Assembly: GCF_000421105.1 (NCBI RefSeq)
Contig: NZ_ATWF01000001.1
Location: 1,995,407 to 2,059,406 of the forward strand
From: Limisalsivibrio acetivorans
GTDB lineage: Bacteria > Chrysiogenota > Deferribacteres > Deferribacterales > Geovibrionaceae
Length of the DNA: 64,000 bases
Reading direction: 5' to 3'
Shown: positions 10,795-63,060 of the stretch, in pieces
Position numbering within the stretch: the first letter of the stretch is position 1
How the letters are laid out: every line of letters starts with the position of its first letter
Program-made: the position numbers and the translations under genes
The notes under the pieces: generated by a model
Told to the model about the DNA's origin: nothing
Databases searched by the model: none
The model's input: the letters and a program-made list of their open reading frames with translations, nothing else

Positions 10795-10803
10795 AATAAT
10801 TGT

Positions 10804-11574: not shown

Positions 11575-11800
11575 TGGAATTTTCCATCCATATAATCTGG
11601 GAAATTCATCATCCTGAGAATTTCCCTGCCGCTTCGCTTGGCAAAGCCTTCGCTCCGCTTACTTACGGCTACATAAATTGAATACAATTCAATTTAGTTT
11701 CACCTACATGGCTTCCATCCATGGAAGCCTGTTGTGTATCAACCTCGCTTGCGTAAGTGAGAATGAAGTTATTTTCATTGAATGGCGGAATAATTTCTGA
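11575..11800 (+). repeat. Mosaic hairpin repeat, copy A2 (shorter)
   Basis: Second copy about 790 bp after A1. It begins with a half-palindrome at 11575-11597, then GGGAAATTC/GAATTTCCC (11599-11626). The AATTG module is changed to AAATTGAAT-ACA-ATTCAATTT (11675-11695), still a nine-bp stem. GGCTTCCA-TCCA-TGGAAGCC follows at 11710-11729, then the CGCTTGCGTAAGTGAGAA linker. The terminal GGGGAA module of A1 is missing. Confidence 0.8.
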
Positions 11801-11986
11801 GGACTGTAACTTATTCAAAGAATGGAGAAAGTATCCTGCTTTATATTTACAAACATTCCTGTTCTTAACAAATCATCTAATATTTCTCCTTAGTTTTATG
11901 AATTGCAGTTCTTTGCGTTCGGGGTATAATTTTTGGAATTCGACTAATTTAATTTACTTAAAGGCGAGCATGGGTTAGCATAATTT

Positions 11987-22035: not shown

Positions 22036-22806
22036 ATGCAGCTCACATTCTCAGCGGTTCCCATTGGGGAAAAGATAAAGCCCAGAGGGCTTAACATCGG
22101 CGAAAAGGTTAACCATCTCCCATACTGTGCCAGGCTCGGCGAGAATCAGTGGGTAGTTGTATACCGCTTCGGCGTTCTTGTATCCGTTGGGCTTGGTGAT
22201 AAGGAGCGGCTTGATGTAATCAGCGAGCTTCAGCCCTTTGTGGGGTCCCCCCTCGAGGGGCTTGAGCCGGAGAACCTCTGTGTGAACACGGGCTATGAAA
22301 AGGATGAGTACCTCGAAGACGAGCTATACCTGAATGAGCTCACGAGGGAATATGTCCTTATGGTTGCGGATATTCTTGCAAAAAGCGTTATGCTGAACCG
22401 CTTTGAGCTGGATATGGCGAAGGTTTTTATCGAGATAGAGCCCCTCGCCCACAGGCTTGAGCAGGGAAAGATTACCATAAGCCCGAAGAGCCTTGTCCGC
22501 AGGATAGGCTCGTCTCTACTTGTTAAGCAGAGGATGATAGGGAGCATAGAGGTTAACGACAAGCCGGAGGTGCTCTGGGACTATCCTGAGATGGAGAAGC
22601 TTTACCTGACCCTTGAGGGGGAATATGAGATAAGGGAGCGCCACCAGCTCCTTGAGAAGAAATTGAGCCTCATCACCACAACAGCTGAAACCCAGCTGGA
22701 ACTCCTTCACAATAAGCACTCCCTCCGGGTGGAGTGGTATATCGTTATCCTCATCGTCGTTGAGATCCTGCTCACACTTTACGAGATGTTTATCAGACAT
22801 GTTTGA
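22036..22806 (+). CDS. DUF155/RMD1 family membrane-anchored protein
   Basis: 256 residues. The family core is visible: VVVYRFGVLVSVG near residue 45, the helical middle, then EVLWDYPEMEKLYLTLEGEYEIRERH. A single C-terminal membrane segment (about 233-252) anchors it. Homologues include yeast Rmd1 and mitochondrial RMND1, which support organellar translation; the bacterial role is unknown. It is a single gene, convergent with the DUF3800 gene, and marks the left border of the accessory island. Confidence 0.85.
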   Translation: MQLTFSAVPIGEKIKPRGLNIGEKVNHLPYCARLGENQWVVVYRFGVLVSVGLGDKERLDVISELQPFVGSPLEGLEPENLCVNTGYEKDEYLEDELYLNELTREYVLMVADILAKSVMLNRFELDMAKVFIEIEPLAHRLEQGKITISPKSLVRRIGSSLLVKQRMIGSIEVNDKPEVLWDYPEMEKLYLTLEGEYEIRERHQLLEKKLSLITTTAETQLELLHNKHSLRVEWYIVILIVVEILLTLYEMFIRHV

Positions 22807-22825: not shown

Positions 22826-23737
22826 CTAACTCAAGGTTGAAAAGAAGCCATCTTCAGTAAAGAATCGATCATGCTTAGATCTAGATAATGCAGGGTAGTA
22901 TTGTATTCCCTTCCATCTCCAAATAATATTATCTTTTTCTTCTAGATATATCTGCTGGTTCATGGCGCACTTTAGAATTTCTTCCCATACCTTGAACATT
23001 TTATTATCACAATTTGCCTCTCTAAAACAGTCAAGAGAGTTACAATATGTATTACATATAGCGTAACTTTCAAAAATTTTCGAAGCGATGCCGCCCAATA
23101 AATCGACAATCTTTATTGCATTTACTTTATAATGAGAATGTTTCTCTTTTTTGGAGATAAACTCAGGACCTTCAATCTTAACATTCATGTTTTTTTCAAA
23201 ATCCTGCGCTATCTTTTTCTGTCTGGATATAAATTCTTTACTGTTGTTATCAATTATCCATTTGAGTGCGGGCTCGCCATTACTTGGATATAAACCTTTT
23301 TCATAATGTATTTTTTTCATGCACGCCAGTACCCTCTTAAGTATAAAATAGTATCCTTGATCGGCAGCATCTTTAATCCTTTTCTTATTGTTACTATCGC
23401 CGTCATTTTGTTCAATTTCTTGTTTATCAACAATGTAAAACCCAAAAAGTACTAACTCACCATTTTCATTCATTTTAGTATAGAAATTTTGAATGAATTT
23501 ATGGAGTTTCTGGGGGTTGTTTTTATTATCCTTTCCTAGTTTTTTCCACTCAGACAATCCTGTCCCCAGCGCTTCTTTGCTTGCAGATGATGCTGAACTG
23601 ATAAGATGTTTCAAGCTATCCGGATTCTTGTTTATAACAAGTGCGTAAGATATTGTGTATAGCTTTGAGGCATTTATGGAATGGGGTACTCCGGTGTCAC
23701 CGCTTTCATCGGATATGAAAATCATGAGCTTATCCAA
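22826..23737 (-). CDS. DUF3800 family protein
   Basis: 303 residues. The N-terminal MIFISDESGDTG is the DUF3800 hallmark (acidic DE-S-G on the first strand). Later acidic positions (WIIDNNSKEF and KIVDLLGG) fit an RNase H-like or nuclease-type fold, which is an inference. The start is TTG 23737, eight bases after GGTGAGG; an internal ATG at 23725 lacks a ribosome site. The gene is markedly A/T-rich compared with its left neighbour, suggesting transfer. DUF3800 genes are commonly found in mobile and defence-like settings and are known to be preceded by conserved RNA structures. Confidence 0.85.
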   Translation of the reverse strand: MDKLMIFISDESGDTGVPHSINASKLYTISYALVINKNPDSLKHLISSASSASKEALGTGLSEWKKLGKDNKNNPQKLHKFIQNFYTKMNENGELVLFGFYIVDKQEIEQNDGDSNNKKRIKDAADQGYYFILKRVLACMKKIHYEKGLYPSNGEPALKWIIDNNSKEFISRQKKIAQDFEKNMNVKIEGPEFISKKEKHSHYKVNAIKIVDLLGGIASKIFESYAICNTYCNSLDCFREANCDNKMFKVWEEILKCAMNQQIYLEEKDNIIWRWKGIQYYPALSRSKHDRFFTEDGFFSTLS

Positions 23738-24172: not shown

Positions 24173-24214
24173 ATGCCTGTTGTTTCTCGATCTGCTAATC
24201 GGGGTGAGGGATGA
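24173..24214 (+). CDS. Possible 13-residue leader peptide
   Basis: ATG behind a strong GGAGGAGGG, encoding MPVVSRSANRGEG. Its TGA overlaps the ATG of the tail terminator gene (ATGA at 24211-24214), so it may provide translational coupling. It may instead be the tail end of a deleted upstream phage gene; the frame is open only back to 24146. Confidence 0.35.
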   Translation: MPVVSRSANRGEG

Positions 24215-24642
24215 GTGTCCGCAGTGATATTTACTTAGGAATCGTGTCCGCTGTTCAATCAATAACTGCGGCAAAAGGATACGCTACGGATATTCAGGCG
24301 GTCTGCGGTGTTGATGGCGACTGCCTTGCCGCGTCTGCACTTCCGGTGGCAGTTGTACAAGACACAAACTGCACAGTTGATTTGTCACCCGAAGATTTCA
24401 CATCAAGAACTCTCAATATCATAATCAAAATTCATTTCTCCGGAACTGGCTCCGCCGCGCAGGCGAGGCAGGCAGTTTCCGACTTTTATTCAGCTGTCTC
24501 CGTGGACAGCACCCTCGGAGGAAAGGCTCGGAATCTTTATCCTGTAAGCGATAGCATCGTTATCGAGCAGGGGGAGACAATAAAAAGCATAGCGGCAATA
24601 TCAATGGCCGCTGAGTATGAAACAAACCTATGGGAGGACTAA
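24211..24642 (+). CDS. Tail terminator/completion-like protein
   Basis: 143 residues. The layout (N-terminal helix, GYATDIQAV strand, ALPVAVVQ, long beta core, C-terminal beta strand) and position just before the tube gene match gpU-like terminator proteins that cap a finished long tail. It is the first full gene of the tail operon and is followed without any gap by the tube gene. Function is inferred mainly from gene order; sequence similarity by eye is weak. Confidence 0.6.
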   Translation: MSVRSDIYLGIVSAVQSITAAKGYATDIQAVCGVDGDCLAASALPVAVVQDTNCTVDLSPEDFTSRTLNIIIKIHFSGTGSAAQARQAVSDFYSAVSVDSTLGGKARNLYPVSDSIVIEQGETIKSIAAISMAAEYETNLWED

Positions 24643-25158
24643 ATGTTTGTTGAAACGAAAAAACTTGGACCCTGTTATGTGACCTTCGGTACCCGTGACC
24701 TAGGCCTTACTTCCGGCGGTGTTGAGTTCGAACACTCCGTTGAATATTCCGATACGGAAGTAGACCAGTACAGCAGCCCCGTGGACAGCCAGGTCTCCAA
24801 GGCTACCGTAAGTGTGACAGTACCCCTCGCTGTATATGACGGTGAGGATATCGAATCTGTTTTCTACGGCGCTTCCGTTGTTGCAGACGGCACAGACCCC
24901 GCAAAGACAGCAGTTGATGTATCCGATTCCATCGGCACCAGCATTAGCACTAAGGCAGACATTCTCACCTGCACACCTAAGAGCGGCAAAGTGGACGACA
25001 CGCTCACCCTTTTCAGGGCGGCACCTAAGATGGAGAGCCTCAAGCTCCTTTATAAGAAGGACGACATCTCCATTATGTCCGTTAAGTTCGAGGCGCTTCC
25101 TGAGAGTGATGAGTCCGACAGGCTCTACAGAATCGGCGATCCCGCAGTTACAGCATGA
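24643..25158 (+). CDS. Major tail tube protein-like
   Basis: 171 residues, beta-rich, small-residue-rich and acidic, with the N-terminal LGPCYVTFGTRDLGLTSGGVEFE pattern seen in long-tail tube proteins that polymerise as hexameric rings. ATG directly follows the previous stop and is preceded by GGGAGGA. It overlaps the chaperone gene by four bases. Role inferred from fold pattern plus its position between terminator and chaperone genes. Confidence 0.65.
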   Translation: MFVETKKLGPCYVTFGTRDLGLTSGGVEFEHSVEYSDTEVDQYSSPVDSQVSKATVSVTVPLAVYDGEDIESVFYGASVVADGTDPAKTAVDVSDSIGTSISTKADILTCTPKSGKVDDTLTLFRAAPKMESLKLLYKKDDISIMSVKFEALPESDESDRLYRIGDPAVTA

Positions 25159-25487
25159 AAGTAATCAATCTGAACAGTTTTCATACTGTATGCAGGGTTG
25201 AGATCGACGGCGAGGAGTTCGAGGTGCGGGGGATTCCGCATATCGAAAGTCTTCAGCTTAAAAAGTACCATGAGGACAATCCCTCATCCTTCGACATAAG
25301 GGAGAGGTATGTGGAGATCCTCAAAAGCTGTACAGACATCCCCCACGATAGGCTGGAAAAGTTTCCGGGAATGCTTATCGATGCGCTGATGCTAACCGCA
25401 CAGGGCTATGACCCCAACCAGCTTATCGAGAATTCGACAAAGCAGAAGGAGGAAGGGGGGAAGGAAGAGGAGCAGAACGGGCAATAA
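25155..25487 (+). CDS. Tail assembly chaperone, short form (G-like)
   Basis: 110 residues, small and acidic, ending in a Lys/Glu/Gly-rich tail with a run of six G bases (25455-25460). Short product of the two-product chaperone locus that lies between tube and tape-measure genes in long-tailed phages and coats the tape measure during assembly. It starts at ATGA overlapping the tube gene. The -1 frame is open through its 3' end, allowing a longer product. Confidence 0.65.
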   Translation: MKVINLNSFHTVCRVEIDGEEFEVRGIPHIESLQLKKYHEDNPSSFDIRERYVEILKSCTDIPHDRLEKFPGMLIDALMLTAQGYDPNQLIENSTKQKEEGGKEEEQNGQ

Positions 25488-25807
25488 AGGAAGCAGATGA
25501 ATACGATTACGACTTTGTTTACTGCTCTATTCTGAGGTTTTATCAGTTATCAATGGCCGAGCTGGATCGTCTCCCGCTCGGTCAGTTCTTCCGGCTTTAC
25601 CGGCAGATAGTGTACATCACCGTCAATGAAAGCAGGCACAGAGCCATATCTAATGCAGCCGCAAGCGATCCATCCGGTGAAATCATGGCTGGATGGCGAA
25701 CGCTGATGATGGATGTGATTAAAGGCGAAGATGCCAGGGCTATTGAGGATGCCATTGAGTTTAAGAGGGTGAGGGATGAAAAGAAAACGCAAGGGAATAA
25801 CGACTGA
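25155..25807 (+). CDS. Tail assembly chaperone, frameshifted long form (GT-like)
   Basis: After the G-like frame, the -1 frame has no stop from 25412 to 25807, so it overlaps the G-like gene by about 75 bases. It reads through a Tyr/Asp-rich linker (EADEYDYDFVYCSILRFYQL) into MAELDRLPLGQFF and a helical T-like domain. A -1 slip in the overlap, most simply at the zero-frame GGG-GGG-AAG around 25455-25463, would yield a product near 216 residues. The ATG at 25553 has no good ribosome site, which also favours the fusion. Exact slip site not proven. Confidence 0.6.
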
Positions 25808-25829
25808 ACCGGCTGGAAGAAAAGGGATA

Positions 25830-25853
25830 GGGGTTGCTGAGAAATCAGCCCCC
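25830..25853 (+). other. GAAA-tetraloop hairpin before tape-measure gene
   Basis: GCTGA-GAAA-TCAGC stem (25836-25849) extended by GGGG/CCCC with a TT bulge. It is located between the chaperone and tape-measure genes. It could protect or punctuate the operon mRNA; there is no U-tract, so it is not a standard terminator. Confidence 0.5.
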
Positions 25854-25884
25854 GCCTGCCTTTCAATGAAAGTGGGGGTGTGAG

Positions 25885-27798
25885 ATGGGAGATGGTACTG
25901 CAAAAGCAACTGTAAATACTGCAGGCAAAATGATGAAAATAGCTTCATCGATGAACCTTGCAGGAATAGTTAAAGAAATAGTTATAGAAGTATTATTTAA
26001 TGGAATCCAGTTCCTGGTAAATAAAGACTGGGAAGCTGACCCTAATAAATATGAAATAAGATTTAGCGAACAGAGTCTTGGTGAACTAGAAGAAACGATA
26101 AAGAAACTTGGGCTCTCAATGACCCAAGTTCTCAAAGATATATCTGACGCTACAGAAAAGCAAATTAACGAACCATATGAGTATGCGAACAAGGCACTAA
26201 GATTAGGGTTTTCATATGATGATATATTTTCAGTTACAAAGTACCTATCCGATTATGGAGACAAGAACGATATCAAAAACATGAAAGATCTATACTTAGA
26301 ATTCTTTAAGAATATCGAGACATTTGATTATGAAAAGTTGAAAAATGCAGGGATCAATCTTGATAGTATGAATGTTGCGGAAATTCTTGAAAAACAGTCT
26401 GGGAGACTAAATCCAGACCAAAGACAGGTTATTGTTAATGAGATATTAAGACAAATCAATCAATCACTGGTTAATAACTCAGACAATCCTGACGCAAAAA
26501 CACTGTCTAGATTGGACCAAAGCTCGGGTAGAAATAATAATAAACTTGAGATTGATCGAAAACTGGCAGGAATTCATGACGTTCATGTTACCTCATCTGT
26601 TGTAACCAAAAAGCTCGATGAAGTCATTAAAAGCTATCAAGAAACTGTAACGGATGGCACAGGGTCAAAAAAGCTTCAAACTACTGATGCCGAGACAAAT
26701 GTCAATGATTCCCAGGTCATTCTGGGTGAAGAAGACATGCCCGAGGTTGAACCAGCCTACATCATAGATATCCAAAGCATCGTTAGTAAACTCAATGAAA
26801 TCCTGCAAGCTATTAATAACATTGAGCACACCCCCTATCCCCCCGCACCAAATGGGGGTGGTGCCCCTATAACCACCAGTGACAGCGACGAAAATGGTTT
26901 CTTTGACATAGCCTCTGAGCCTGGTGCAGGAAAAAAAGGTTCCAGTGATGTAGAAAAAATTCTGGAAGGTATCGAAAGTGAAAAGAAAGTAATAAGACTC
27001 ACTGAGCTTTACGGCGAAAGAGACGGCTATGACTGGCAGAAGGCTGAGATCCACAGAGAGATGCGTGAGACTGCCCGTAGATCAGGAGGAGATCCGAGGG
27101 TCATAGAAGCGGCACGGGAAATTAAGGATTACAAACTGGCTGATCTGGAACAGAGAAAGGAGGCCGAAGAACGACAGGCTGATCCGGTGTTTCAGGCAAC
27201 AGATGGCGCCCTCACAGAGATGAAGGATATCGGTCAAAAACATCTTCAGAGCTTTTTTGAAACAGGGACTTTGGACACTGGAGCGATGATAAGCGAGATG
27301 GCCAAAGGGCTAGAGATCTTCGCAATGCAGAAGGTTACACATCTACTTATGGAGGCCGCTTATAATGGCGTCATGTTTCTTGTTACAGGAGACTCAAAAC
27401 ACAGCAAAGCTGCATCGGCGGCCTTAAGTGGCGTTCCTGCAATCCTTTCCATTCTTGCAGGCTTCAAGGCGGGGAATATGCTTTCCAGCGGCGACAGCGA
27501 ATCTGGCGGCGGAGGAGCCCCTGTGGGGCAGGCCCACGACGGCTGGGAAGATGTTCCGGATACGGGCACTTACTACCTCGAAAAGGGTGAAACAGTACTC
27601 GATAAAAACACCACTAAATGGGTCAAGGAACAGAAGTCCGGCGGTATCAACATGCACAACAACATTACCATCAACGGCGGCGATGAAAAGAGTGTAATGC
27701 GGGCACTTCCTGCACTGAGACAGACCATTAAAGATGTTGTAACAGAGGACATAGCAAACAACGGACAGGTTCGTAAGTCTATTAAGGCTTACGCATAA
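25885..27798 (+). CDS. Tail tape-measure-like protein
   Basis: 637 residues, largely helical. Hydrophobic segments lie near the N-terminus (about 20-45) and at about 480-545. The C-terminus, with AHDGWEDVPDTGTYYLEKGETVLDK followed by a NNITINGG strand, is a pattern seen at the end of tape-measure proteins. It sets tail length; with the common scaling of about 0.15 nm per residue the tube would be near 95 nm, an inference. The central part (codons 30-330) is clearly more A/T-rich than the 3' third, hinting at domain exchange. Confidence 0.7.
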   Translation: MGDGTAKATVNTAGKMMKIASSMNLAGIVKEIVIEVLFNGIQFLVNKDWEADPNKYEIRFSEQSLGELEETIKKLGLSMTQVLKDISDATEKQINEPYEYANKALRLGFSYDDIFSVTKYLSDYGDKNDIKNMKDLYLEFFKNIETFDYEKLKNAGINLDSMNVAEILEKQSGRLNPDQRQVIVNEILRQINQSLVNNSDNPDAKTLSRLDQSSGRNNNKLEIDRKLAGIHDVHVTSSVVTKKLDEVIKSYQETVTDGTGSKKLQTTDAETNVNDSQVILGEEDMPEVEPAYIIDIQSIVSKLNEILQAINNIEHTPYPPAPNGGGAPITTSDSDENGFFDIASEPGAGKKGSSDVEKILEGIESEKKVIRLTELYGERDGYDWQKAEIHREMRETARRSGGDPRVIEAAREIKDYKLADLEQRKEAEERQADPVFQATDGALTEMKDIGQKHLQSFFETGTLDTGAMISEMAKGLEIFAMQKVTHLLMEAAYNGVMFLVTGDSKHSKAASAALSGVPAILSILAGFKAGNMLSSGDSESGGGGAPVGQAHDGWEDVPDTGTYYLEKGETVLDKNTTKWVKEQKSGGINMHNNITINGGDEKSVMRALPALRQTIKDVVTEDIANNGQVRKSIKAYA

Positions 27799-27842
27799 TT
27801 TCATTCAATTCAGTCAAAGACGTAATTATATGAGAGGGGAAC

Positions 27843-28181
27843 ATGGCAGATACATACCCGCTGAAACCGAATAGGATAACCGTAACCACAATAAGGCACA
27901 AAACCACTGTTGCAACCTTTGAGCGAGGAAACGAACAGAGAATGAGCAACTGGAAGAAGGGTAAGAAAGAATTCGAACTGAAGCATTATAACCTGTCCAT
28001 TGAAGAGAGGGACCAGATAATTGCTTTTCATGAGGATAGACATGGAAGTCTTAGGAAGTTCTACTTTGCCAATCACGTGGATAATCTCGTCTACGTTGTT
28101 AGGTTTGCTGAGGATAGCTTAAGTATAGACCATGCAAATGCTTACTCCTTTAACCTTACTGCGAGGGTTATAGAATGCTGA
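27843..28181 (+). CDS. Minor tail protein, gpM-like
   Basis: 112 residues, beta-rich, starting behind AGAGGGGA. Matches the size and position of the lambda gpM-type distal tail protein that links the tape measure to the tip (tape measure, M, L, K, J order). YNLSIEERDQIIAFHEDRHGSLRKFYF resembles the helix-turn region of this group (also DUF2460-like). It overlaps the next gene by seven bases. Assigned from order and size. Confidence 0.6.
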   Translation: MADTYPLKPNRITVTTIRHKTTVATFERGNEQRMSNWKKGKKEFELKHYNLSIEERDQIIAFHEDRHGSLRKFYFANHVDNLVYVVRFAEDSLSIDHANAYSFNLTARVIEC

Positions 28182-28786
28182 GAATAAACACCGGTGGAGA
28201 TAACACAGTAATAAACAGCGAAGAGCTACTGATCCATCACCTATACGAGCTTGAATACGCTGACGGGATGTTCCTCCGGATGACCGACTGTGATGAGGAT
28301 ATTGACTACGGTGGAAAAATATACTCCAGCAACGCAATAACCCATGATGGTCTGAAAAGCTCTTCCGGTTCGGAGACGAACACCGTAAGCCTTTCAATTG
28401 GTAATGCAGACAGACAGATACAGTATTACCTTGAGAACCATAACATACTAGGCAAAACGGTTACCGTCACGCAACTATTCTCCGATGTGGATGGGAATAT
28501 CAAGGGTGAGATCAGAGGAAGCTATAGGATAAAGAACGCAACTGCCAGAAAAGATGTTGCCACATTTACCCTGGCTCTGGGTTTTGATTTATACAATATA
28601 ACCGCTCCAAACAGAAGGATGTTCACACAGTATTGCCAGCATCAGTTCAAGGACTCTAATTGCAAATACTATACTGCTGATCCTGATGTTCGGTGCGGTA
28701 AAACTCTGAAGGCCTGCATGGCCTTTGGTAATTCGGTAAATTTCGGAGGATTCCCTGCGTTGCTCAAGTCCCATTTCTATATCTAA
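28175..28786 (+). CDS. Minor tail protein, gpL-like with Fe-S cysteines
   Basis: 203 residues. The N-terminal two-thirds is a DUF2163/gpL-like beta domain. The C-terminus has four Cys arranged as YCQHQFKDSNC ... VRCGKTLKAC followed by GN and FGGFP. This reproduces the cluster-binding end of lambda gpL, which carries an oxygen-sensitive [4Fe-4S] centre in the tail tip. All four Cys are kept, supporting a functional protein. The reading frame ends inside the start region of the gpK-like gene. Confidence 0.75.
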   Translation: MLRINTGGDNTVINSEELLIHHLYELEYADGMFLRMTDCDEDIDYGGKIYSSNAITHDGLKSSSGSETNTVSLSIGNADRQIQYYLENHNILGKTVTVTQLFSDVDGNIKGEIRGSYRIKNATARKDVATFTLALGFDLYNITAPNRRMFTQYCQHQFKDSNCKYYTADPDVRCGKTLKACMAFGNSVNFGGFPALLKSHFYI

Positions 28787-29174
28787 ATATCTTGGGATTC
28801 CGTATCTCTCAGGAGGAAGGGATCGTTCGGGTATAGATTGCTGGGGTTTTGTAATCCTTATTCTGAAAGAAGAGATGGGGATTAAACTGTTTGATTATCA
28901 GTATTCCGATGATTCGGAACTTGGAGGGATGATAATTGAACACATTTATGAGCAGTTTGAGCGTGTTGAACAGCCGAAGGCTGGCGAATTGATTCTGTTC
29001 GGAACAAAGACGGATATACCGGATCATATTGGAGTTTATTTAGGTAAAAACAGGTTCATACACTCCATTAGAGGTCATGGGGTAATTGTATCTAAACTAG
29101 GTGTTTGGAAGGGTAAGGCATATGGATACTACAGAGCAAAAAATGCAGATAAAGATAGTTCCCAACGCACTTGA
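28755..29174 (+). CDS. NlpC/P60 tail peptidase, gpK-like (start uncertain)
   Basis: Cell-wall endopeptidase of the tail tip. The essential N-terminal part lies upstream of the first ATG (28875): the frame is open from 28740 and reads YLGIPYLSGGRDRSGIDCWG, which has the catalytic Cys in DCWGF. The His follows in PDHIGVYLG and a second polar position in FIHSIRGHG. There is no ATG, GTG or TTG between 28740 and 28793. I use CTG 28755, five bases after GGAGG, as the best candidate; ATT 28773 or ATA 28779 are alternatives. It overlaps the J-like gene. Confidence 0.7.
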   Translation: MRCSSPISISKYLGIPYLSGGRDRSGIDCWGFVILILKEEMGIKLFDYQYSDDSELGGMIIEHIYEQFERVEQPKAGELILFGTKTDIPDHIGVYLGKNRFIHSIRGHGVIVSKLGVWKGKAYGYYRAKNADKDSSQRT

Positions 29175-32100
29175 TAGGACAAACCGCAAAGAAATTGAGG
29201 TCGATTATTGCGGTCAGACCTGCGGGGAGCTTTTCGATGAGTATACGGAGTACAACAGGGAAGATTTTATCCCGGTTATATCAGGCAAGACCGCTGAATG
29301 GGAAGACAAACCCAATGATTATGACGAAGTCATATTTATCAATGATATAAAGGGCGAGAACGGCACAATGGTATCGTTTGCCCTAGGCGTTGCGCTCATA
29401 GGTGGTGGTGCTTATTTATTAGCTATGGGCAATCCAAATGGAATTCACGTAGTCACAGCGGGTATATCAATGCTTGCAGGAACTGCTGTGGGCATGATGG
29501 CAGGTATGTTCACCCCAAATGTTCCAACTAATAATATACAGGATGAGTTTGCCGGCTCCAGGACATACTCTTGGGACGGCATAAGAAACCTGGTTGGGGA
29601 GGGTAACGTAGTTCCTGCTGTTTTCGGCAGACATAGAGTTGGCGGAGCAGTTATTGAGGCCTTTATTGATGGAGAAAAAGACAGTGGTGTTTTTGAGAAG
29701 GAGTATTTGAATGTGCTCATTGCTCTGTCAGAGGGAGAAGTGGGAAGTATTAGCGAAGACGAGGTATATGTCGGAGACAATAACATAAAATATCTGGAAA
29801 CCGTTGAGGCAAGCCAGGTATATCCAATTGAACAACTTTTGTCAGACACTCAGCATACTGACCCTGTGCAGCCCCAGGGAGAGTTTGGTGTTCATACCTT
29901 TTCTGAGGTAACATGCAATTTATTTATTGAAGAAGGCTTAGAAAGAGAAGTGACTTGGGAAGAGTATGACGAGGGTGAGTATTATACTAATTCTTGCTGG
30001 GTACCTCTTAAGGCATATATTTCTGCTGAATGTAGAACAATCGGAGACACAGATTGGATTAATGCTGGCACAAAAGAAGTTTCTGGAAGAAGCCAATTCT
30101 TCTCTGTAAGTTTTGATATGCCTGAAGGTGAGTATGAGCTGCGGTTTAAGGGGTATATTAAAGAGGTAAACGATTATTACTACAGCATCCCCCGCAGCTA
30201 TCCAGTTCTTAAAAACATAGAGTACAGAGGCCGCGGGACTGTCTATTCTCTTAATACCAGAACCGGAGAATCCTACCAAAGATCCATGGGTGGGTTTTCA
30301 GAAATTAAGAAGCATATTAATGTTGCCGGCAAAAAAATTACATACGGCAATTACCAAGAATATATTTCTACAGGTATGATAGATTCTGCCGTTGTAGGCA
30401 TTAGATTCCCTGCTTTATTTAAAACCTCCGATAGTGGGGGGATAGAACCTTTTAAGATTAAGTTTCGCTTAGAATACAAGCCATATGAAGATCAGGATAT
30501 CCCCGAAAACTGGACGACTGTTCTAAATCCTGACACTAGCGTAGAGGATCGTTCAGAATTTGAAGTAACAGGGGAAACCCGCTCCGAGATAACCTATGCT
30601 GTAAGGTGTAAGTTCTCTCAAACACAACAACGCTATACTATCAGGATTACTCGTCTTACCGAGGACTATGAGGATAACCTTAGGGTAAATGCAGATTCAT
30701 ACCTCGGCTATGTTCAGGAAATCCTTGATTCCGAGATTGCTTATAACAACACCGCACTCCTTGGGGTCCGTATACTGGCCACTGATACACTTGCGGGTAA
30801 TATGCCTACTATATCAGCCACTATCAGTGGAATAAAAGTCGGCGATGTCAGGTATATCGATGAAACCGGTGTGTTCCCGAGCGATTCTCCTGCTCCAGAA
30901 GCGAGCTCTAACCCTGCAAATATTCTTTATGAATTGCTAACAAGCAAACGATGGGGATTCGGTAAATGGATTAAGCCCACGCAGATCGATATCGAGTCGT
31001 TCAGAGAGTTTGCAAGCTATGCAGATGAAATGGTTTTTTTCGAGATCGAAGAAAACGGAACTCTGGTAACAAAGGCACACAAACGCTTTGAAATAAACCT
31101 TGTACTTGATAAAGAGTACAGGGCATCTGAGATTGTAGCAAAGATATGTTCAACATGCAGGGCAACCCCCGTATGGGAGGGTGATAAGCTAAGAATCGTT
31201 ATTGATAAGGCGGACACCCCTGTTCAGCTGTTCAATATGAGCAGCATTGTTGAAGATACATTCTCGGAAAGTTTTACAGATGTAGGCTCTATCCCCAATC
31301 AGATCTCAGCTCAAATCCTTGATGAAGAGGATAATTACAAACAGGCAACGATCGCTGTATATGATAGTGAAAGAATCGGAGAGCCTCTGAACAGCAAGGA
31401 TATACAGCTATACGGTATAACAAGTAAATCAAGAGCAAAACGTGAAGTCGCCTTCGCCCTCCGTAAAGCTAAGGCTACAAAGAAGATTGTAAGCTTCGAG
31501 GCTTCTTGGAAAGCGGTTGTTTGCCAAGTGGGTGACTTGATACTTCTTCAGCATGATACACCCCAATACGGTCAGGGAGGAGAGATAACTTCAGCCACTG
31601 CCGACAGCCTGGGGCTTGATGAAGATATAGAGCTGGTTGAAGGCGAAACCTATACACTAAGAGTTCAGAAACGTTCAGGAGTAATGTATGTTCGTACATT
31701 TATCCATTCATCTCCGACAGCAACGACTAACGCTATAGGAATATCCGGCAACTCAGGTGAACAGGGAGAGCCTTCTGATATTCAGGCAGGCGACGAATGG
31801 GTATTCGGCAAGGTTAATATTGAATCAAAGCCGTACCGTATCCTTTCCATTGAAAAGGCGAAGGATGAAACAATCAAGATCACAGCAGAAGAGTACAATG
31901 AAAGTATCTATACAGATGATTTCGATTCATTAGTGGAGGAGACAAAGTACTCTCAGCTAGGCTTGGTGAAAGAGGATGATATTGATATCGAATCCGGAGC
32001 CAACCCTGCCACGGTGATACCTCCTTTTGTAACAAATATCGAAGCAAGGGAAGTTATCTCAATAAAGGCAACAAGACCCATCAGTAATATTGAAGTCTAT

Positions 32101-34095
32101 TTCACTCCTGCGGTTAATAATTTGGCTACTACTGTGAGAGTGGAGCGATATCAGATTCTTTATTCAAGTGACGGCAATAGATGGCAAATAGCAGAGGAAA
32201 CAAACGGTAATTACGGTGTTATTCGTAATGTTGAAATAGGTAAAACATACTATATAGCAATAAGATCAATTACCAACTACGGAGTATCCAATAACCCGAC
32301 TTATGGTTCTGATCTATGGGTGGCTATCGCTACAGACGGCGTTACAGATACTGATCTTTCTTCAATGAGTTTTGTAGCAAATATCCATGACGATGGAACC
32401 CTCCTTGAATGGACGCATCCAGTCAGTATTGAGGGGGTTGAAGCTTATGAAATATGGAGGTATAGCCTTAATGATAATAGCCAGCCAGTTCATATAGCTA
32501 CAAAGCCTTATCCTGAGAAGATGTTAGTTGATCCTCAAAAGCTTTTGGCTGGTTCATATGCTTACCAGCTATATGTTGTAGATATGGCTGGAGTTAAGTC
32601 TTCAACAATGTTGGAGGTTTCGATTGATGTGCTTCCTCCCGGCGAAATCACAATGCTTGGTTATAAAAGGCAGGGAGCAAATATGCTTCTGGTTTGGAAC
32701 GGATTAACGGCTAGAACCACCTATCCTATCAGCCATTATATTGTTGACGGTGAGATAATTAGAGAAAGCTTCCTGGCTGTTGATGGTGACTGGGATGGCA
32801 CCAAGAATTATACAATTTCTGCCGTTGATACCGCCGGAAATGTTGGCCCAGAAACAATACTTGCTGCAGAGATCCCTGTTCCCAATAATCCCACTGGTAT
32901 AACCCATACGCCCAAACTTTATGGAATAGATGTCAGTGTAGATGTAATTACCGATAACAACTTTTCGTCCTTAGAGATATGGGCGAGCGAGACTAACAAC
33001 CGTGCTGATTCACTGATGGTTCATTCGGGAGAGTCGCTAAGATATTCATTTACGAATCTTAAGCTTGTTGATCACAGGTATGTATGGGCAAGAACCAAGG
33101 ATGTTTTCGGCAACTATTCCGGCTGGTATCCTTTCAGCGATAGCGGAGGAGTGTACACTGAGACGCTTCAGGATCCTTCTGAACTGATTGATGCCCTTGA
33201 TGGAGCTGTGACCGCAGACATGCTTGAGGATACACTATCGTCACGTATAGACCTCATAGATACCAATTCAGTATACGAAGAAGGAGTATACGAGAGTGTT
33301 ATATATGGAAGTATTTCCCAAGTGGCATTTGAAAACAATTCGGGCATGGCTGCCATCCAGGAATCAATGCTTATTCAGGAGAATGACACAGGGAACCTGC
33401 AGGCTGAATACTTCCTCAAGATGGGTGTAAACGGCTATATCAGCGGGTTTGGAATGTTTAATGACGGCTCTAATTCCGCGTTTGGAATCAATGCTGACAG
33501 CTTCTTTATTGTTGATCCCAGTAACGCTGGAACTCTTGAGAGGCCTTTCGAGATACTTATGGACGGAGGAAGTGCAACCGTTAAACTGAAGGGGGATCTA
33601 ATAGCCGATGGCTCTATAGTGTCGGATAAAATTGCTGCAGGGGCAGTAACAGCGGAATCGGGCATTATTGACGACCTGGCTGTGGATACCCTCCAGATTG
33701 CTAATAATGCGGTTACCGTTCCGGTTCATGCATCTTCCGATGGAACATTCTATGGTTCAGATGTGATGAATCCCATCACGATAGTTGAAGCTGTAGTCGT
33801 TAATAGCTCGAGTCAACCAATGAATGCTCTGATCACTGTGCATGGCCAAATTATCTATACTTCGGCTAGTGGGGCTAGGAACGCAGGCTTTAATATTACA
33901 AGAGTTGACGAAAATAATACCGAGATCAAAATAACAGAGATTATTGACACATTCTACGCTGATTTCATGTCCTATGTGGCATATGACACAATAACTCCGA
34001 ACTCCACTTATACATACAAATTAATATGGCGTTCTGATGAGCCTACAGTAGCCATTGTCGACCCGTCTCTTGTTATTATGGGGGTCAAGAAATGA
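29122..34095 (+). CDS. Tail tip attachment protein, gpJ-like
   Basis: About 1657 residues from ATG 29122 (GGAAGGG eight bases upstream; ATG 29143 is possible). The N-terminus has a gpI-like part: a short alpha/beta region then a Gly/Ala hydrophobic stretch (VSFALGVALIGGGAYLLAMG) near residues 85-140. The J-like hub domains follow, with FN3-like repeats around residues 960-1400. A DUF1983-like C-terminal region (LIADGSIVSDKIAAGAVTAESG) comes near residue 1490. It binds the receptor and forms the tip. Overlaps the peptidase gene by about 53 bases and the next gene by four. Confidence 0.8.
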   Translation: MDTTEQKMQIKIVPNALDRTNRKEIEVDYCGQTCGELFDEYTEYNREDFIPVISGKTAEWEDKPNDYDEVIFINDIKGENGTMVSFALGVALIGGGAYLLAMGNPNGIHVVTAGISMLAGTAVGMMAGMFTPNVPTNNIQDEFAGSRTYSWDGIRNLVGEGNVVPAVFGRHRVGGAVIEAFIDGEKDSGVFEKEYLNVLIALSEGEVGSISEDEVYVGDNNIKYLETVEASQVYPIEQLLSDTQHTDPVQPQGEFGVHTFSEVTCNLFIEEGLEREVTWEEYDEGEYYTNSCWVPLKAYISAECRTIGDTDWINAGTKEVSGRSQFFSVSFDMPEGEYELRFKGYIKEVNDYYYSIPRSYPVLKNIEYRGRGTVYSLNTRTGESYQRSMGGFSEIKKHINVAGKKITYGNYQEYISTGMIDSAVVGIRFPALFKTSDSGGIEPFKIKFRLEYKPYEDQDIPENWTTVLNPDTSVEDRSEFEVTGETRSEITYAVRCKFSQTQQRYTIRITRLTEDYEDNLRVNADSYLGYVQEILDSEIAYNNTALLGVRILATDTLAGNMPTISATISGIKVGDVRYIDETGVFPSDSPAPEASSNPANILYELLTSKRWGFGKWIKPTQIDIESFREFASYADEMVFFEIEENGTLVTKAHKRFEINLVLDKEYRASEIVAKICSTCRATPVWEGDKLRIVIDKADTPVQLFNMSSIVEDTFSESFTDVGSIPNQISAQILDEEDNYKQATIAVYDSERIGEPLNSKDIQLYGITSKSRAKREVAFALRKAKATKKIVSFEASWKAVVCQVGDLILLQHDTPQYGQGGEITSATADSLGLDEDIELVEGETYTLRVQKRSGVMYVRTFIHSSPTATTNAIGISGNSGEQGEPSDIQAGDEWVFGKVNIESKPYRILSIEKAKDETIKITAEEYNESIYTDDFDSLVEETKYSQLGLVKEDDIDIESGANPATVIPPFVTNIEAREVISIKATRPISNIEVYFTPAVNNLATTVRVERYQILYSSDGNRWQIAEETNGNYGVIRNVEIGKTYYIAIRSITNYGVSNNPTYGSDLWVAIATDGVTDTDLSSMSFVANIHDDGTLLEWTHPVSIEGVEAYEIWRYSLNDNSQPVHIATKPYPEKMLVDPQKLLAGSYAYQLYVVDMAGVKSSTMLEVSIDVLPPGEITMLGYKRQGANMLLVWNGLTARTTYPISHYIVDGEIIRESFLAVDGDWDGTKNYTISAVDTAGNVGPETILAAEIPVPNNPTGITHTPKLYGIDVSVDVITDNNFSSLEIWASETNNRADSLMVHSGESLRYSFTNLKLVDHRYVWARTKDVFGNYSGWYPFSDSGGVYTETLQDPSELIDALDGAVTADMLEDTLSSRIDLIDTNSVYEEGVYESVIYGSISQVAFENNSGMAAIQESMLIQENDTGNLQAEYFLKMGVNGYISGFGMFNDGSNSAFGINADSFFIVDPSNAGTLERPFEILMDGGSATVKLKGDLIADGSIVSDKIAAGAVTAESGIIDDLAVDTLQIANNAVTVPVHASSDGTFYGSDVMNPITIVEAVVVNSSSQPMNALITVHGQIIYTSASGARNAGFNITRVDENNTEIKITEIIDTFYADFMSYVAYDTITPNSTYTYKLIWRSDEPTVAIVDPSLVIMGVKK

Positions 34096-34679
34096 AAACC
34101 TTTATCAAATATGACGGCAACGGAAAGATTGAACAAATTCAAACAGTTACAGCTAAAGAAGCAAGCATATACCGAAGGTATCTAAAGGGCTGGCTTGAGG
34201 TTGACGGGGCAATTAACCCAAAGAGTTATTATATTGAAAACGGGAAACTGACAGAGAAACCACCTCGGCCTTCCAAAGAGATGTCCTTCGACCACGCTCA
34301 AAAGAAGTGGGTTGTGGACAAATCTTTGGTCAGAATTGATGTTAATCAAAACCGAAATAGAAAGCTTAGAGAAAGGGTTACTATTGAGGGTGACACCTAC
34401 GATGCTGACGATAAGGCACTCGTCATGGCTATGGCCAAAGTGCATGAGGTAAGTTTCCGGTCTGAGAGCGGTGAAGACTTACACTCCGACGAGCTCTGCT
34501 GGATCGATGGTGAAAACAGGATGAAGCATTTTAATTCAGTAAGTAGATATCTGGTGTTCTTGAAGAAATTAATTGCCGAAATCAGCAGAAGAAACTCTGA
34601 AGTGATAATAAGTGCGCATAAAAGAAAATGTGGAGGAGAAAATGGCGAGTTATCCGTTGAACGTATTGAAAGTAAATGA
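34092..34679 (+). CDS. Tail-fibre-associated protein with DUF4376-like end
   Basis: 195 residues. An N-terminal beta part (TFIKYDGNGKIEQIQTVTA) is followed by a helical C-terminal domain resembling DUF4376, common in tail-fibre accessory proteins. It shares four bases with the J-like gene and overlaps the next by 38. Could be a fibre adaptor or folding chaperone. Distantly similar in layout to the gene at 36993. Confidence 0.5.
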   Translation: MKTFIKYDGNGKIEQIQTVTAKEASIYRRYLKGWLEVDGAINPKSYYIENGKLTEKPPRPSKEMSFDHAQKKWVVDKSLVRIDVNQNRNRKLRERVTIEGDTYDADDKALVMAMAKVHEVSFRSESGEDLHSDELCWIDGENRMKHFNSVSRYLVFLKKLIAEISRRNSEVIISAHKRKCGGENGELSVERIESK

Positions 34680-35115
34680 GAAGCAGGCTCCTTTAACAGC
34701 TGTAGAACATGATGATAACTGGGGACTGGTGGAGGATGCAGTAAACGACCTTGATTCTAGAATTGCAGGGATACACGTTGATGAGATTGATAATTTTATC
34801 AACAAAGGAACAGTTTCCAGCGGTACCGTAACATTTGACTACTCCGAAGGGAGGGGGCAGGCTGTCACAATAGCAGGCTCCGTATCCTTTGATTTTACAG
34901 GTTTTGTCGCTGGCAAAGCCCAGGGAATTGTAATCCGTGTAGAGAATGGCGGCAGCTCTGTGATCACATTCCCCTTAGTCCATTGGAGAAAGAGTGATGG
35001 CACCAGTACGACAAATTTCTCAGAAGCGGGCGTAATCCTTCAGTCAGTTGGCACAAATTTTCTAATAGTTTGGTCCGATGACGGCGGAGCAACATTGCAC
35101 GGGAGCATTCTCTGA
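34642..35115 (+). CDS. Small beta-rich tail fibre/baseplate protein
   Basis: 157 residues from ATG 34642, behind GGAGGA (34632-34637); an in-frame ATG at 34612 has no ribosome site. Short N-terminal helix region (AVEHDDNWGLVEDAVNDLDSRI), then a beta-rich domain of repeated hydrophobic strands (TVTFDYSEG, VTIAGSVSFDFTGF, IVIRVENGG). This resembles the trimeric collar domains of phage fibres. Ends in TGATG overlap with the LamG gene. No family named with confidence. Confidence 0.55.
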   Translation: MASYPLNVLKVNEKQAPLTAVEHDDNWGLVEDAVNDLDSRIAGIHVDEIDNFINKGTVSSGTVTFDYSEGRGQAVTIAGSVSFDFTGFVAGKAQGIVIRVENGGSSVITFPLVHWRKSDGTSTTNFSEAGVILQSVGTNFLIVWSDDGGATLHGSIL

Positions 35116-36983
35116 TGAACTATCAAACAATTCTGCCATTTACAGCTTCTTCGCATAGTGGACAGAGCTCTATCCCGTCGGATTATGTGGCCTTCTACAA
35201 GCTAGAAGATAATTCCGGTTTTGATGAAACAGGCAACAATCATATAACATACTCTGATCCGAATGTGATTTACTCAGCGGGTAAATTCGAAGGCTTTGGG
35301 GCATCTTTGTCAAATGGGGCATATCTTGAGACTCCATTAACAGTGCCTTCGAGTGCGTTTACCTGGTCCGTGTGGGCTAAGTTTGAAAGTGCAGGCTCCG
35401 ATACAGGAGGTCTGGACACAATTTTTGGTAGATGGCTTTCAGCAGGGGCAGAATCATATGGGTATGCCATTTTTCTTGAAGAAACAGGAACAGCTCACGC
35501 TGGGGTTTGGGCAGATGTCGATGGAGTTTGCACCTTTATTTCAAGTTCTGCATCATTTTCATATGACAGTAACTGGCATCACCTAGTTTTTAGATATGAC
35601 GGCTCTGAAATTGTGCTTTTCATGGATGGCGTTAAATATGCTGCAGCGCTTTGGGATGGACAGCTCAATGGTGATGCCGAAAAGCCCCTTTGGATAGGAA
35701 AAGGAAACTCTGACCCCGCTAGTCAGCATTCCCAGATATTCGAAGGCACTGTGGATCATATCCGTGTGTATGAAAGGGCACTTTCAGATTCAGAGGTGAA
35801 TACGCTATATAATGAAAACGAAAACAATGGCGCAATAATCAATGACGGAATACTTACAAACGATGGTTCCGCTGCTGATGATAGATTTACAGTTGAATCT
35901 CATATTGATGGAGATAGAACTGGAGTAGAGGTTGACATCTCCAGAGATGGCATGGTTATGGTTGTTGGCGCATGGTTCCGCAACTCTGAGCGAGGTGGTT
36001 TCTATCTATATGAAAGAGACATAACTACAGGAGGATGGAGCCTGATTGACTTTTTCTGCCCACCGTCTGCTGTTTCAGGGGACAAGTTAGGGTACTCCTT
36101 AAGGATCAGCGGTGATGGTCATACCGTTGTACTTGGCGGATATAATCAGGTTGAAGAGGCTTATGTTTATTCGGATAGGAGTGGAAGCTGGATCCTTGAA
36201 GCGACACTTACGGCATCTGAAATAAGCTGCTGGAATCCTAATGGTTTCGGCTTTTCGGTAGCTGTGGATTATGATGGCGATACCGTAGCAGTTGGCTCGT
36301 ATGGCTGCAACGGGGTTGGTATTTTTAAACGTTCAGAAAGCACATGGACTAAGACAAGGGTATTCGGTGGCGCTATAAACTGGTTTTCCAGTAATTTTGG
36401 ATATTCAGTAGCCATATCTGACGATGGTTTGAGGCTTGCAGTAGCCGATTTTTATAAAAACACCTCTGAGAGAGGAGTTGTAGGAGTTTACGAGCTCACA
36501 GAAGATGGATGTATATCTTACTCTCCAGATCTTCTTACATATAGAAGTGGTGATATCGATTCAAGAATGGGCATATTCGTTGATATCTCCTCAGACGGCA
36601 GGTTTGTTCTGGCTGGAGCATACTACGATAATGGAAGCGGCACCCGCAGAGGTGCAGTTTATCATTTCTATGAAGAAGGATACAAAGGGTCTGGAAGCTG
36701 GTCTTCCCCTACCAAGGCTACATCTCCTACTCCTTTTGATTATGAATATTTCGGCAGAAAAGCCAGATGGGTAGAAGACGGCAGCCTCAAGTTCATTGTC
36801 TGCTCATATGGAGGAGCAGATTACCCGGGTAAACTATACTTGTATGAATATCCAGACACATTTCTTCAGGAGTATCTGCCTGATGTTACGAAAAACGACA
36901 CATTCTGGGGATATGGTATGGTTTCAAATGGGGACATTCTTGTTGCTAGCGGTCAAAATGGCATAATACACACATACTATTAA
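35115..36983 (+). CDS. LamG plus beta-propeller fibre-like protein
   Basis: 622 residues without a signal peptide. Residues about 25-230 form a concanavalin-like LamG domain: SSAFTWSVWAKF, SNWHHLVFRYDG, VDHIRVYERALSDSEVNTLYN. From about 260 to the end come six or seven repeats of the type VDISRDGMVMVVGAW, FSVAVDYDGDTVAVGSY and YSVAISDDGLRLAVADF, which predict a beta-propeller (FG-GAP-like). Both folds bind glycans or proteins, so this is the likely receptor-binding fibre. Its codon use is as A/T-rich as the J-like gene. Confidence 0.7.
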   Translation: MNYQTILPFTASSHSGQSSIPSDYVAFYKLEDNSGFDETGNNHITYSDPNVIYSAGKFEGFGASLSNGAYLETPLTVPSSAFTWSVWAKFESAGSDTGGLDTIFGRWLSAGAESYGYAIFLEETGTAHAGVWADVDGVCTFISSSASFSYDSNWHHLVFRYDGSEIVLFMDGVKYAAALWDGQLNGDAEKPLWIGKGNSDPASQHSQIFEGTVDHIRVYERALSDSEVNTLYNENENNGAIINDGILTNDGSAADDRFTVESHIDGDRTGVEVDISRDGMVMVVGAWFRNSERGGFYLYERDITTGGWSLIDFFCPPSAVSGDKLGYSLRISGDGHTVVLGGYNQVEEAYVYSDRSGSWILEATLTASEISCWNPNGFGFSVAVDYDGDTVAVGSYGCNGVGIFKRSESTWTKTRVFGGAINWFSSNFGYSVAISDDGLRLAVADFYKNTSERGVVGVYELTEDGCISYSPDLLTYRSGDIDSRMGIFVDISSDGRFVLAGAYYDNGSGTRRGAVYHFYEEGYKGSGSWSSPTKATSPTPFDYEYFGRKARWVEDGSLKFIVCSYGGADYPGKLYLYEYPDTFLQEYLPDVTKNDTFWGYGMVSNGDILVASGQNGIIHTYY

Positions 36984-36992
36984 GGAGGTCGT

Positions 36993-37589
36993 ATGTTTTA
37001 CAATCCGGATAATTCTACAATATTAAAGAGTAAGAATGAAATAAGGCGGGCAGTCCCGAATAAATCCTTTCCAGCATCAATTCCTGATGAGGTTGTTCTG
37101 GGTGAAGGGTATTACTATTTGGAGGATGAGCTTCCTGACTATAACCCAGCTTCAGAGAGGGTTGCCAAATCAGGAGTTATATTCGACGAAAAATCAGGCA
37201 AGTACTGCCAAGCTTATACAGTTGAGCCTCTGCCTGAGGATATAGTATCAAAACGGCTTGAGGCAGAGAAAAATGCAAAAAAGCTTGAAATAAGAGATGA
37301 TTTCCAGAGGGTAAGATCAATGGCATCAGAAGCTTTGGGAGCCGAGGTTAATTTCGGAGAGAAACACATTGCAAATCTTTCTGGTCTTATTAAAACCTTA
37401 GATGCGGGAGAAACGACAGAGTTTCGTATCTTTGATAACACTTTTGTTACATCTACAAGAGAACAGCTCGAGCTCCTTGAGATTGAGATGTTGCAGAATC
37501 TCCATGCTTTATATGCTAGAAAATGGGAGCTTGAGGGACTTGTTGCGAATGCGTTAACTATTTCCGAGATCGTAGAAATCAACTGGTGA
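36993..37589 (+). CDS. Fibre-associated protein with DUF4376-like domain
   Basis: 198 residues behind AAGGAGGT. An N-terminal beta region (YYYLEDELPDYNPASERV) and linker precede a helical C-terminal domain (from about residue 95) of DUF4376 type. It ends the tail operon. Possibly the assembly chaperone or tip adaptor of the LamG fibre before it. The helical domain layout recalls the gene at 34092, suggesting an old duplication. Confidence 0.5.
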   Translation: MFYNPDNSTILKSKNEIRRAVPNKSFPASIPDEVVLGEGYYYLEDELPDYNPASERVAKSGVIFDEKSGKYCQAYTVEPLPEDIVSKRLEAEKNAKKLEIRDDFQRVRSMASEALGAEVNFGEKHIANLSGLIKTLDAGETTEFRIFDNTFVTSTREQLELLEIEMLQNLHALYARKWELEGLVANALTISEIVEINW

Positions 37590-37629
37590 GGTTGCCGGCT
37601 GAATGGACTGGTGTTCTGTGCGACTGTTT

Positions 37630-37659
37630 ACAGCTGCCTCTTAGTACGGAGGCAGCTGT
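37630..37659 (+). terminator. Hairpin ending the tail operon
   Basis: A perfect 11-bp stem, ACAGCTGCCTC (37630-37640) / GAGGCAGCTGT (37649-37659), eight-base loop, 40 bases after the last tail gene. The U-tract is weak, but the position fits a terminator or mRNA 3' end. Confidence 0.6.
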
Positions 37660-38092
37660 ATGTTAGGTTAGCGAAATAAAAATCACCCTCCGACACATAG
37701 TGGATGTTTGTTTCGCTTCATGTGTATGTGTGTTATTGTCTATAAGCATAAGAGGGTTTAGATAGAAAATAAGCGATTTTGGGGTGTTGACTCTATTGGC
37801 AGAGATTTAGTGATAATAATCATCATAACGGTACTGCTATGTGGAATTCGTCTCCTTCGGCCTTATAAAATAATAAATTTAACACAATCATAACTAGTTT
37901 ATCCTGAAAGTGTAAACTATTCTTTTACTAGGATAGGAGTTAGTTCGCTTATCAACTTTGTCTCATTGATAGTCTTTCTTTACAGTGTGTTTGTAAACGT
38001 CCATCTTTTCTTGCAGTAGATATTTAGAGTTTTCCGCTCTTTCAAAAGACTCCCCTGCGGTTATATTTCCCAGGGAATCATGCAGTCGTCAT
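37660..38092. other. Gene-free right border of the island
   Basis: A/T-rich sequence with no credible gene. No integrase, lysis gene, tRNA fragment or direct repeat matching the left border could be recognised. The convergent M24 peptidase begins the normal chromosomal backbone. Confidence 0.5.
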
Positions 38093-39271
38093 TCAACCTT
38101 TGCTGATTATATCAAAATGGCTTCCTGTAAGGCTTTTTCCGCCTTCGGGGGTTACGACGAAGGTGTTTTCGATGCCCACCATGCCGAGTCCGGGTATACC
38201 TCGTTTCGGTTCTAGGGCTATTACCATATTCTCTTCGAGGGGGTCATCGAATTTTTCGGCGATAACAGGGTATTCGTCAACGTGCAGGCCGATCCCGTGA
38301 CCGAGAAATGTTACTTTGCCTAGGCCGAACCCGTTATACTCTTTGAGGAATTCAGCATCTACTCCTGCGGTGTGCTCCCTGTATATTTCTGACGGGACAG
38401 CACCGGGGCGGAGCATATCGGCACCCCTTTGCTGGAGCTGAACACATATTTCGTGGTATCGGCAGGCCTCATCTGTGAGCTCACCGATGGAGTATATCGA
38501 GGTCTTATCCGTATAGTATCCCTGGATTCCGCAAGCCACATCCACAAAAACCGGCATATTTCTTTCAAGCTTCACTTCACTGCTGCCCATGAGTGGAACT
38601 GCGGTGCTGATACCTCTTACTCCGCCCGGACCGTCGAAGGTGTTGTGGTAAAGCGCACTTTCGCCGAAGCAAACAAGACCGAGAAAGAGCTCGCTTCCAT
38701 AGCCGCCTGTTCTGGTGAGCCCCTGAGAACCCCTTCGCATCATTTCTGAGAGGATCTCTGTTCCAAGTTCAAATTCGCTCATACCAACTTCGAGTATGGA
38801 GGGGACATATTCCTCCAGGACGCTTCGGTGTATCTCGCCAGCCTGTTTCATAAATGAAAGCTCCAGTTCGGACTTAACAGCCCTTGCCTTTGCCACAGGA
38901 AAATCTAGTGAGCGGATTTCATCGAAGGAGTGGTATTTGCTGAATCGGGAGAAATGGGCCATTGGTATCTTTTCTGTGTCAAGATGCAGGATGCCGCCAG
39001 ACTCAATCTCAAGTTCACGGAAGCTTTTGAAGCATCTTACATCTGGGAAGTTTGATTCCTCAATGGCCCTCTGACAGCTTCTACGGACATAAAAAACGGC
39101 GTCCCCGTCACGCTTTATGACAAGGACACCGTTTTGCATCGTTCCAGTAAGATAATAGCAGTTGATCCTGTCCATAAGGACAGCTGTTTTCCATTCCGCA
39201 TCGAAGCCAGTCAGCTCACTGCGGAGCCTGTTAATTCGTTGCTCAAGTTCCCCTTTGGGGATAATTGTCAC
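38093..39271 (-). CDS. M24 family Xaa-Pro-type aminopeptidase
   Basis: 392 residues. An N-terminal creatinase-like domain (about 1-150) precedes the pita-bread catalytic domain. Metal ligands are visible: Asp in FVDVACG, Asp in YYTDKTS, His in [12 protein letters not shown], Glu in ALEPKRG and Glu in GIENTFVV. It removes N-terminal residues next to proline or is a related dipeptidase. GTG start behind GAGGAG, overlapping the sigma factor stop by four bases (GTGA), so it belongs to that operon. Confidence 0.9.
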
Positions 39272-52324: not shown

Positions 52325-52434
52325 ATGAGAAATATAACCTCAGAGTATGAGATTGTCGATATACATATGTGATATATCTGTAATGTTTGAATAAGAAATC
52401 AAGCTGAGAGTATATTCTATAGATATAATTAAGA

Positions 52435-63044: not shown

Positions 63045-63060
63045 TTCATCACATTTAATG

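Follow-up and report, generated by a model that had tools for sequence, protein, structure and literature searches.

The window analyzed here, a stretch of 64,000 nucleotides from Limisalsivibrio acetivorans, carries 13 co-directional open reading frames on its plus strand (24211-37589) that specify the genes of a non-contractile siphophage tail. Profile searches support the terminator, tube, tape measure, M (DUF2460), L, K (NlpC/P60), I-J and fiber genes, and these are collinear with the lambda-like order terminator-tube-G/T-tape measure-M-L-K-I/J. With matching frames in tail order and E-values down to 1e-136, chance is excluded as the cause of this pattern. The same profile searches place no sheath or contractile baseplate gene among the 13, and the operon has the makeup of a non-contractile lambda-like siphophage tail module, in which G and T are assigned by position and frame only. 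The original prediction, made from the letters alone, had described a capsid-less tail operon of 13 genes (24173-37660) in the lambda order; the open reading frames and profiles bear this out, with the correction that I is present as a fusion to the N-terminus of J. Its statement that nearly all junctions overlap is worded too strongly. Eight of the 12 junctions overlap or abut, the L-K junction among them only if a CTG start is accepted for K, but four are gaps of 9-77 nt: G-T (65 nt), T-tape measure (77 nt), tape measure-M (44 nt) and fiber gene-last gene (9 nt).

The first operon gene (24211-24642) codes for a U-like tail terminator of 143 aa (phrog_4204 tail terminator, E=7e-4), which also aligns with the terminator of a related phage locus, L168 (E=3e-4). 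Next to it is the gene for the V-like major tail tube protein of 171 aa (24643-25158; phrog_2175, E=5e-26; phrog_476 major tail protein, E=3e-5), which shows full-length matches to tail and Ig-domain proteins of many phages. The succeeding G-like (25155-25487; 110 aa) and T-like (25553-25807) genes have no profile match and are assigned as tail assembly chaperones, by their position between the tube and the tape measure and by an open -1 frame across the end of G. Read backward from T, the frame stays open into the last part of G and beyond a six-G run near 25455, as a -1 frameshift needs; going by the lambda G/GT precedent, T is probably made as a G-T fusion via -1 slippage at this G-run. The tape measure protein (H-like; 25885-27798) has 637 aa and matches the tail length tape measure families phrog_13674 (E=2e-10) and phrog_339 (E=1e-9).

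The tip is specified by four genes. The M-like DUF2460 protein (27843-28181; 112 aa; PF09343, E=4e-12) has matches at 72 related loci. The L-like tip/hub protein (28175-28786; 203 aa; PF09931, E=7e-13; PF05100 Phage_tail_L, E=3e-7) contains, as read from its sequence, four Cys with the spacing x8, x10, x6, and the cluster residues claimed for it are thus present. The K-like NlpC/P60 peptidase (28755-29174, counted from its apparent CTG start; PF00877, E=1e-9) is succeeded by the I-J fusion, a tail tip attachment and central fiber protein of about 1657 aa (29122-34095; phrog_31 central tail fiber J, E=9e-137), with the I part detected by phrog_32 at residues 61-184. The I-J protein aligns to the solved structures of lambda J and I, and also to the F2-pyocin fiber and its I-like protein. 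The remaining genes encode a tail-associated protein of 195 aa (34092-34679; phrog_2837 tail protein, E=4e-5), an uncharacterized protein of 157 aa placed in the fiber region by its position and lacking a profile match (34642-35115), a candidate fiber or receptor-binding protein of 622 aa that combines a LamG-like domain with FG-GAP repeats (35115-36983; PF13385, E=2e-19; PF14312, E=1e-12), and a fiber-assembly-like DUF4376 protein of 198 aa (36993-37589; PF14301, E=4e-7; phrog_1348 tail fiber, weak).

The start of K is abnormal. Its frame has no ATG, GTG or TTG from the preceding stop to the Cys codon (28839) of the catalytic motif IDCWG, and its first ATG (28875) lies 3' of that codon. Only a CTG at 28755 could plausibly serve as the start; it stands 5 nt downstream of GGAGG, a good ribosome-binding site. 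Six related K genes carry an ordinary start codon (ATG or GTG) before the Cys. The Cys-containing frame matches PF00877 and aligns to MepS/Spr structures through the IDC motif (E=6e-12), which agrees with the claim that the catalytic residues of K are kept. K would have either a rare start codon or a first lesion. The missing standard start is the only candidate for an inactivating mutation, and all other frames are open. Hence, the claim that no frame is broken holds for the operon except at K, and this start may in part represent the inactivating mutations that the original prediction, with regard to relatives, had named as evidence against it.

In its composition the module resembles lambda-like siphophage tails with a DUF2460/phiJL001-type tip, with which it shares gene order and the domains PF09343, PF09931, PF00877 and PF13550, and the lambda J and I structures are matched by its I-J protein. 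It differs in that I and J are fused and in that no head, Z/gp10 or terminase gene lies upstream. The tubes are likewise unlike, that of the nearest tip relatives having about 380 aa versus 171 aa in the window. The DUF2460/phiJL001-type tip is also the tip type of RcGTA gp12-gp15.

The operon is flanked by a DUF155 gene on the left (22036-22806) and by an M24 peptidase gene on the right (38093-39271). Between the two no capsid or other head gene, portal, terminase, integrase or lysis gene was recognized, consistent with the absences originally claimed, nor was a dedicated regulator. Lysis genes were also not recognized in the wider interval 20432-42348, and a promoter scan gave no excess over shuffles. 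On the right, the block of M24 peptidase, sigma factor, PCMT and ArgB genes is conserved in relatives and is therefore host DNA. On the left, AT-rich DNA (GC 0.34) begins directly after the DUF155 stop. It contains a gene on the minus strand (22826-23737; GC 0.344, low host-codon index), which confirms that the operon is preceded by a gene on the opposite strand. The product of this foreign gene has a DESGD motif recalling DUF3800 and found no match in Pfam, NCBIfam or PHROGs; no readable head-gene fragment lies upstream of the operon. The operon itself looks foreign by codon usage and GC3: GC3 is about 0.40 in the J, tape measure and fiber genes versus 0.58 in host genes, and its host codon index and GC3 are mostly lower than those of the host genes of the same window.

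The 3' end of the DUF155 gene (22651-22804, plus strand) forms an att-like left edge of the foreign DNA, with its 154 bp recurring as a 98% identical duplicate at G000:C1:2093732-2093885 (C1 and C2 are contigs of the window genome, G000). The two copies are in direct orientation, 75.7 kb apart, with core genes between them. A duplication of this kind is what integration into the 3' end of a gene would leave. The right edge of the operon, however, has no such copy: the second one lies 55.7 kb farther on, beyond host genes, which can be explained only by assuming a subsequent rearrangement or another element. A search for a short att repeat linking both edges of the operon found nothing above chance. 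Directly to the right of the displaced repeat is a glycan/LPS-type gene island with a DUF3987-like gene recognized by eye (G000:C1:2093886-2107137), which adjoins an integrase and a tRNA-Leu (taa) gene and looks like a tRNA-associated island. Other repeats of about 90-360 bp, 70-98% identical, are seen at 10803-11817, 52410-52675 and 63053-63567 of the window and recur across the region and its left flank.

To trace the phyletic spread of the tail, J was compared with 60 relatives, including 11 members of the same family, and with a wider set of 384 other genomes that includes these relatives and none of the same genus. Among the 60 relatives J is found at full length solely in the window genome, and in none of the 384 other genomes of this set. 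A comparison across related genomes had been proposed as a check for a retained locus, and within this scope the locus is not retained. Its first 1192 residues have a strong match in only two of the 384 genomes, at about 30% identity. In three family genomes (G006, G007 and G011) the match is limited to the C-terminal third. That of G006 belongs to another, recognizably different phage, and that of G011 lies near a contig end. The G007 match falls within a Mu-like prophage that carries a terminase, a portal and capsid-like genes (G007:C1:375207-394154; L008, L009), in which the terminase, portal and MuF-like genes are divergent from the capsid and tail genes.

Single-protein queries with J, the tape measure and the tube recovered no close relatives among viral contigs. 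A three-sequence J alignment used to scan viral and genome contigs yielded 80 viral and 15 genome loci, several of them from Omnitrophota. Of these loci, 26 extend 7.5 kb or more upstream of M, and their upstream regions were compared. In 25 of these M-L-K-IJ relatives head or connector genes lie directly before the tail, with a major capsid homolog in 23 of the 25; the typical upstream set comprises portal, protease, decoration, major capsid, connector and gp10-like genes. This tail type is therefore normally part of complete phages. The original prediction had named head genes in a sister copy as contrary evidence, and such genes are indeed found, although beside homologous tails rather than a true sister copy. 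Examples are phages and prophages with the same tip from Omnitrophota and other bacteria (L164, L167, L168, L170 and L178), which share the M-L-K-IJ order and the I-J fusion, with J about 27-32% identical to that of the window. They differ from it by the portal, protease, decoration, major capsid and gp10-like genes that immediately precede the terminator. The window copy lacks everything upstream of the terminator, the gp10-like gene included. Two of these related prophages with the same tail tip, L164 and L170, reside in one genome, that of Candidatus Velamenicoccus archaeovorus (NZ_CP019384.1), with genes that by eye look radical-SAM-like lying past the fiber genes in the late region. The single exception to the upstream pattern, R3-B46 (G278), has no head genes before the tail; it is on a contig full of insertion-sequence and duplicated genes and was therefore not counted in support of a tailocin.

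We consider it probable that the locus represents a prophage tail module left without head, lysis and integration genes and probably still able to assemble. In this scenario a horizontally acquired siphophage, non-contractile and of the lambda/DUF2460 type, would have been the source of the module. The probable entry point of the prophage was the 3' end of DUF155 or its vicinity. Later the prophage would have lost the integrase, the early and lysis genes, the terminase and the head genes, leaving a cut at the junction of head-tail connector and tail terminator. Provided that they are transcribed, the remaining genes are still expected to yield a flexible tail: the tape measure would be coated by the G and G-T chaperones, the tube subunits would stack to the length of the tape measure, the terminator would cap the tube, and the M-L-K-I/J tip with the fibers would form the binding and cell-wall-opening end. 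Because of the completeness of the module and the lambda ratio of tape measure to tail length, a tail of about 95-100 nm is expected for the 637-aa tape measure. The deletion is an event that we infer, as are the assembly of the tail and its expression and export.

Since no lysis gene or regulator adjoins the operon, a defective prophage remnant is the simplest reading. It is further supported by the head or connector genes of homologous phages and prophages that adjoin the same tail type in 25 of the 26 relatives, though at only about 30% identity, and by the restriction of full-length J to this genome, the foreign composition, the duplicated DUF155 3' end and the abnormal K start. Against it speak the openness of the other frames and the clean cut at the head/tail border, as a kept particle would have. 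The position of the second DUF155 repeat, past core genes, leaves the integration story incomplete. The searched genome and viral contigs contained no close relative with both the same tail and a head, so the deletion itself is not seen. The original prediction took the intact frames to mean that selection acts on the tail. This is unsupported: full-length J is absent from the rest of the family, the DNA is foreign, and a recent deletion would equally leave the frames open, so that open frames alone are no proof of selection. Most simply, the remnant is still largely intact because the loss is recent.

The chief rival is a working F-type tailocin. Such a particle would be produced under stress, depend for its release on lysis genes elsewhere, and act on competitors bound by its LamG/FG-GAP fiber and J, killing them by membrane depolarization. 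Candidate genes exist here for nearly all tail-assembly functions, tail genes occur without head genes, and the cut at the head/tail border is where such a particle would have it. Moreover, J and I match the solved F2-pyocin fiber and its assembly protein, with which they are detectably homologous; this does not discriminate, since the similarity to lambda is about equal. An instructive parallel is rhizoviticin, the F-type tailocin of Allorhizobium vitis, which likewise arose from a prophage by deletion of head genes (PMC10811719), as in the reading we favor, and has a headless siphophage tail locus in common with the window. Rhizoviticin has retained its lysis genes, a LexA-type repressor and early genes, none of which lies at the window locus, and its killing is demonstrated (PMC10811719). 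Pyocin clusters, F2-pyocin being the relevant comparison, similarly carry holin and lysin genes (PMC8609362), and none is present at the window locus. With neither lysis genes nor a dedicated regulator in or beside the cluster, the locus is therefore not classed as a tailocin. The abnormal K start also speaks against a tailocin, as does the lack of a full-length J in any of the 11 family relatives, or in the rest of the 384 genomes (a set without the same genus), which runs counter to a locus kept across strains or species. We accordingly place the prophage remnant first and regard the F-type tailocin as a less likely though serious second.

Release of a tailocin of this kind could draw on a resident prophage (C1:1143-1177 kb) that came to light through the search of the window genome for head genes. 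This prophage (G000:C1:1143274-1177015; L182-L184) is apparently complete, with an integrase at its edge, and, judged by eye, has a sheath, a tube, a long tape measure, a contractile baseplate, a terminase and an endolysin-like peptidase. This peptidase would be a candidate lysis function, though in a different prophage and not at the tail locus. A PF05136 search located a portal within it (C1:1161 kb); this portal was rejected as the missing head, because its prophage has its own contractile tail. Searches of the genome with PF04860, PF05065 and PF10124 gave no match. The presence of a second, headed prophage, together with the att-like duplication at the left edge, could be accommodated by a satellite or integrative element that carries a tail and borrows heads from a helper phage. 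We hold this to be very improbable: the island is without integrase, replication and regulator genes, and the head of a contractile-tailed prophage is not expected to take a siphophage tail.

A PF03237 search further recovered a large terminase on contig C2, lying between a small-terminase-like gene and a Mu-type portal (G000:C2:325358-328309; L066/L067, with relatives L076-L083). All 12 family genomes, spanning four genera, have this large terminase, at 58-65% identity to the window-genome copy; it is single-copy apart from weak second matches in two genomes, and that of G006 has an in-frame TGA. The three genes are side by side in all eight relatives whose neighborhood was compared, with dN/dS values of 0.03-0.11 in comparisons with unsaturated dS. 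Three genomes, all of one genus (g2), have flanks collinear with those in the window genome, and the other five in the comparison have different ones. None of the neighborhoods read showed a recognizable capsid gene beside the trio. These features make the trio look like a vertically inherited, domesticated packaging core, and we propose it as a candidate for such a core or for a dispersed gene transfer agent. A partial literature search found no paper describing it. As the terminase is family-wide and the tail is not, we rejected it as the missing half of the window phage. The profile searches of the genome for head genes, which covered the families named here, thus turned up a portal and a terminase elsewhere, neither of which looks like that missing half.

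Some gene transfer agents have genes at several loci, and one could envisage the orphan tail and the orphan trio as a single dispersed, domesticated system for packaging and delivering DNA, in which a foreign tail was recruited to a vertically inherited packaging core. The universal presence of the trio in the family, the conservation of its large terminase and its low dN/dS are what this proposal would draw upon. We think it even more remote than the satellite: a tail found in this species only and a family-wide trio have no shared history, no PF05065 or PF10124 capsid was found in the window genome, and the portal of the trio is Mu-type, versus the phrog_21 portal of the relatives of the tail.

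Headless tail operons are the raw material of F-type tailocins, and therefore an intact one without lysis genes, as in L. acetivorans, would represent either a very early stage of that process or, as we favor, a remnant. The locus is also a caution against reading selection from open frames alone. For a domesticated phage function in this family of bacteria, the conserved terminase-portal trio is the stronger lead, and it is arguably of greater interest than the tail operon.
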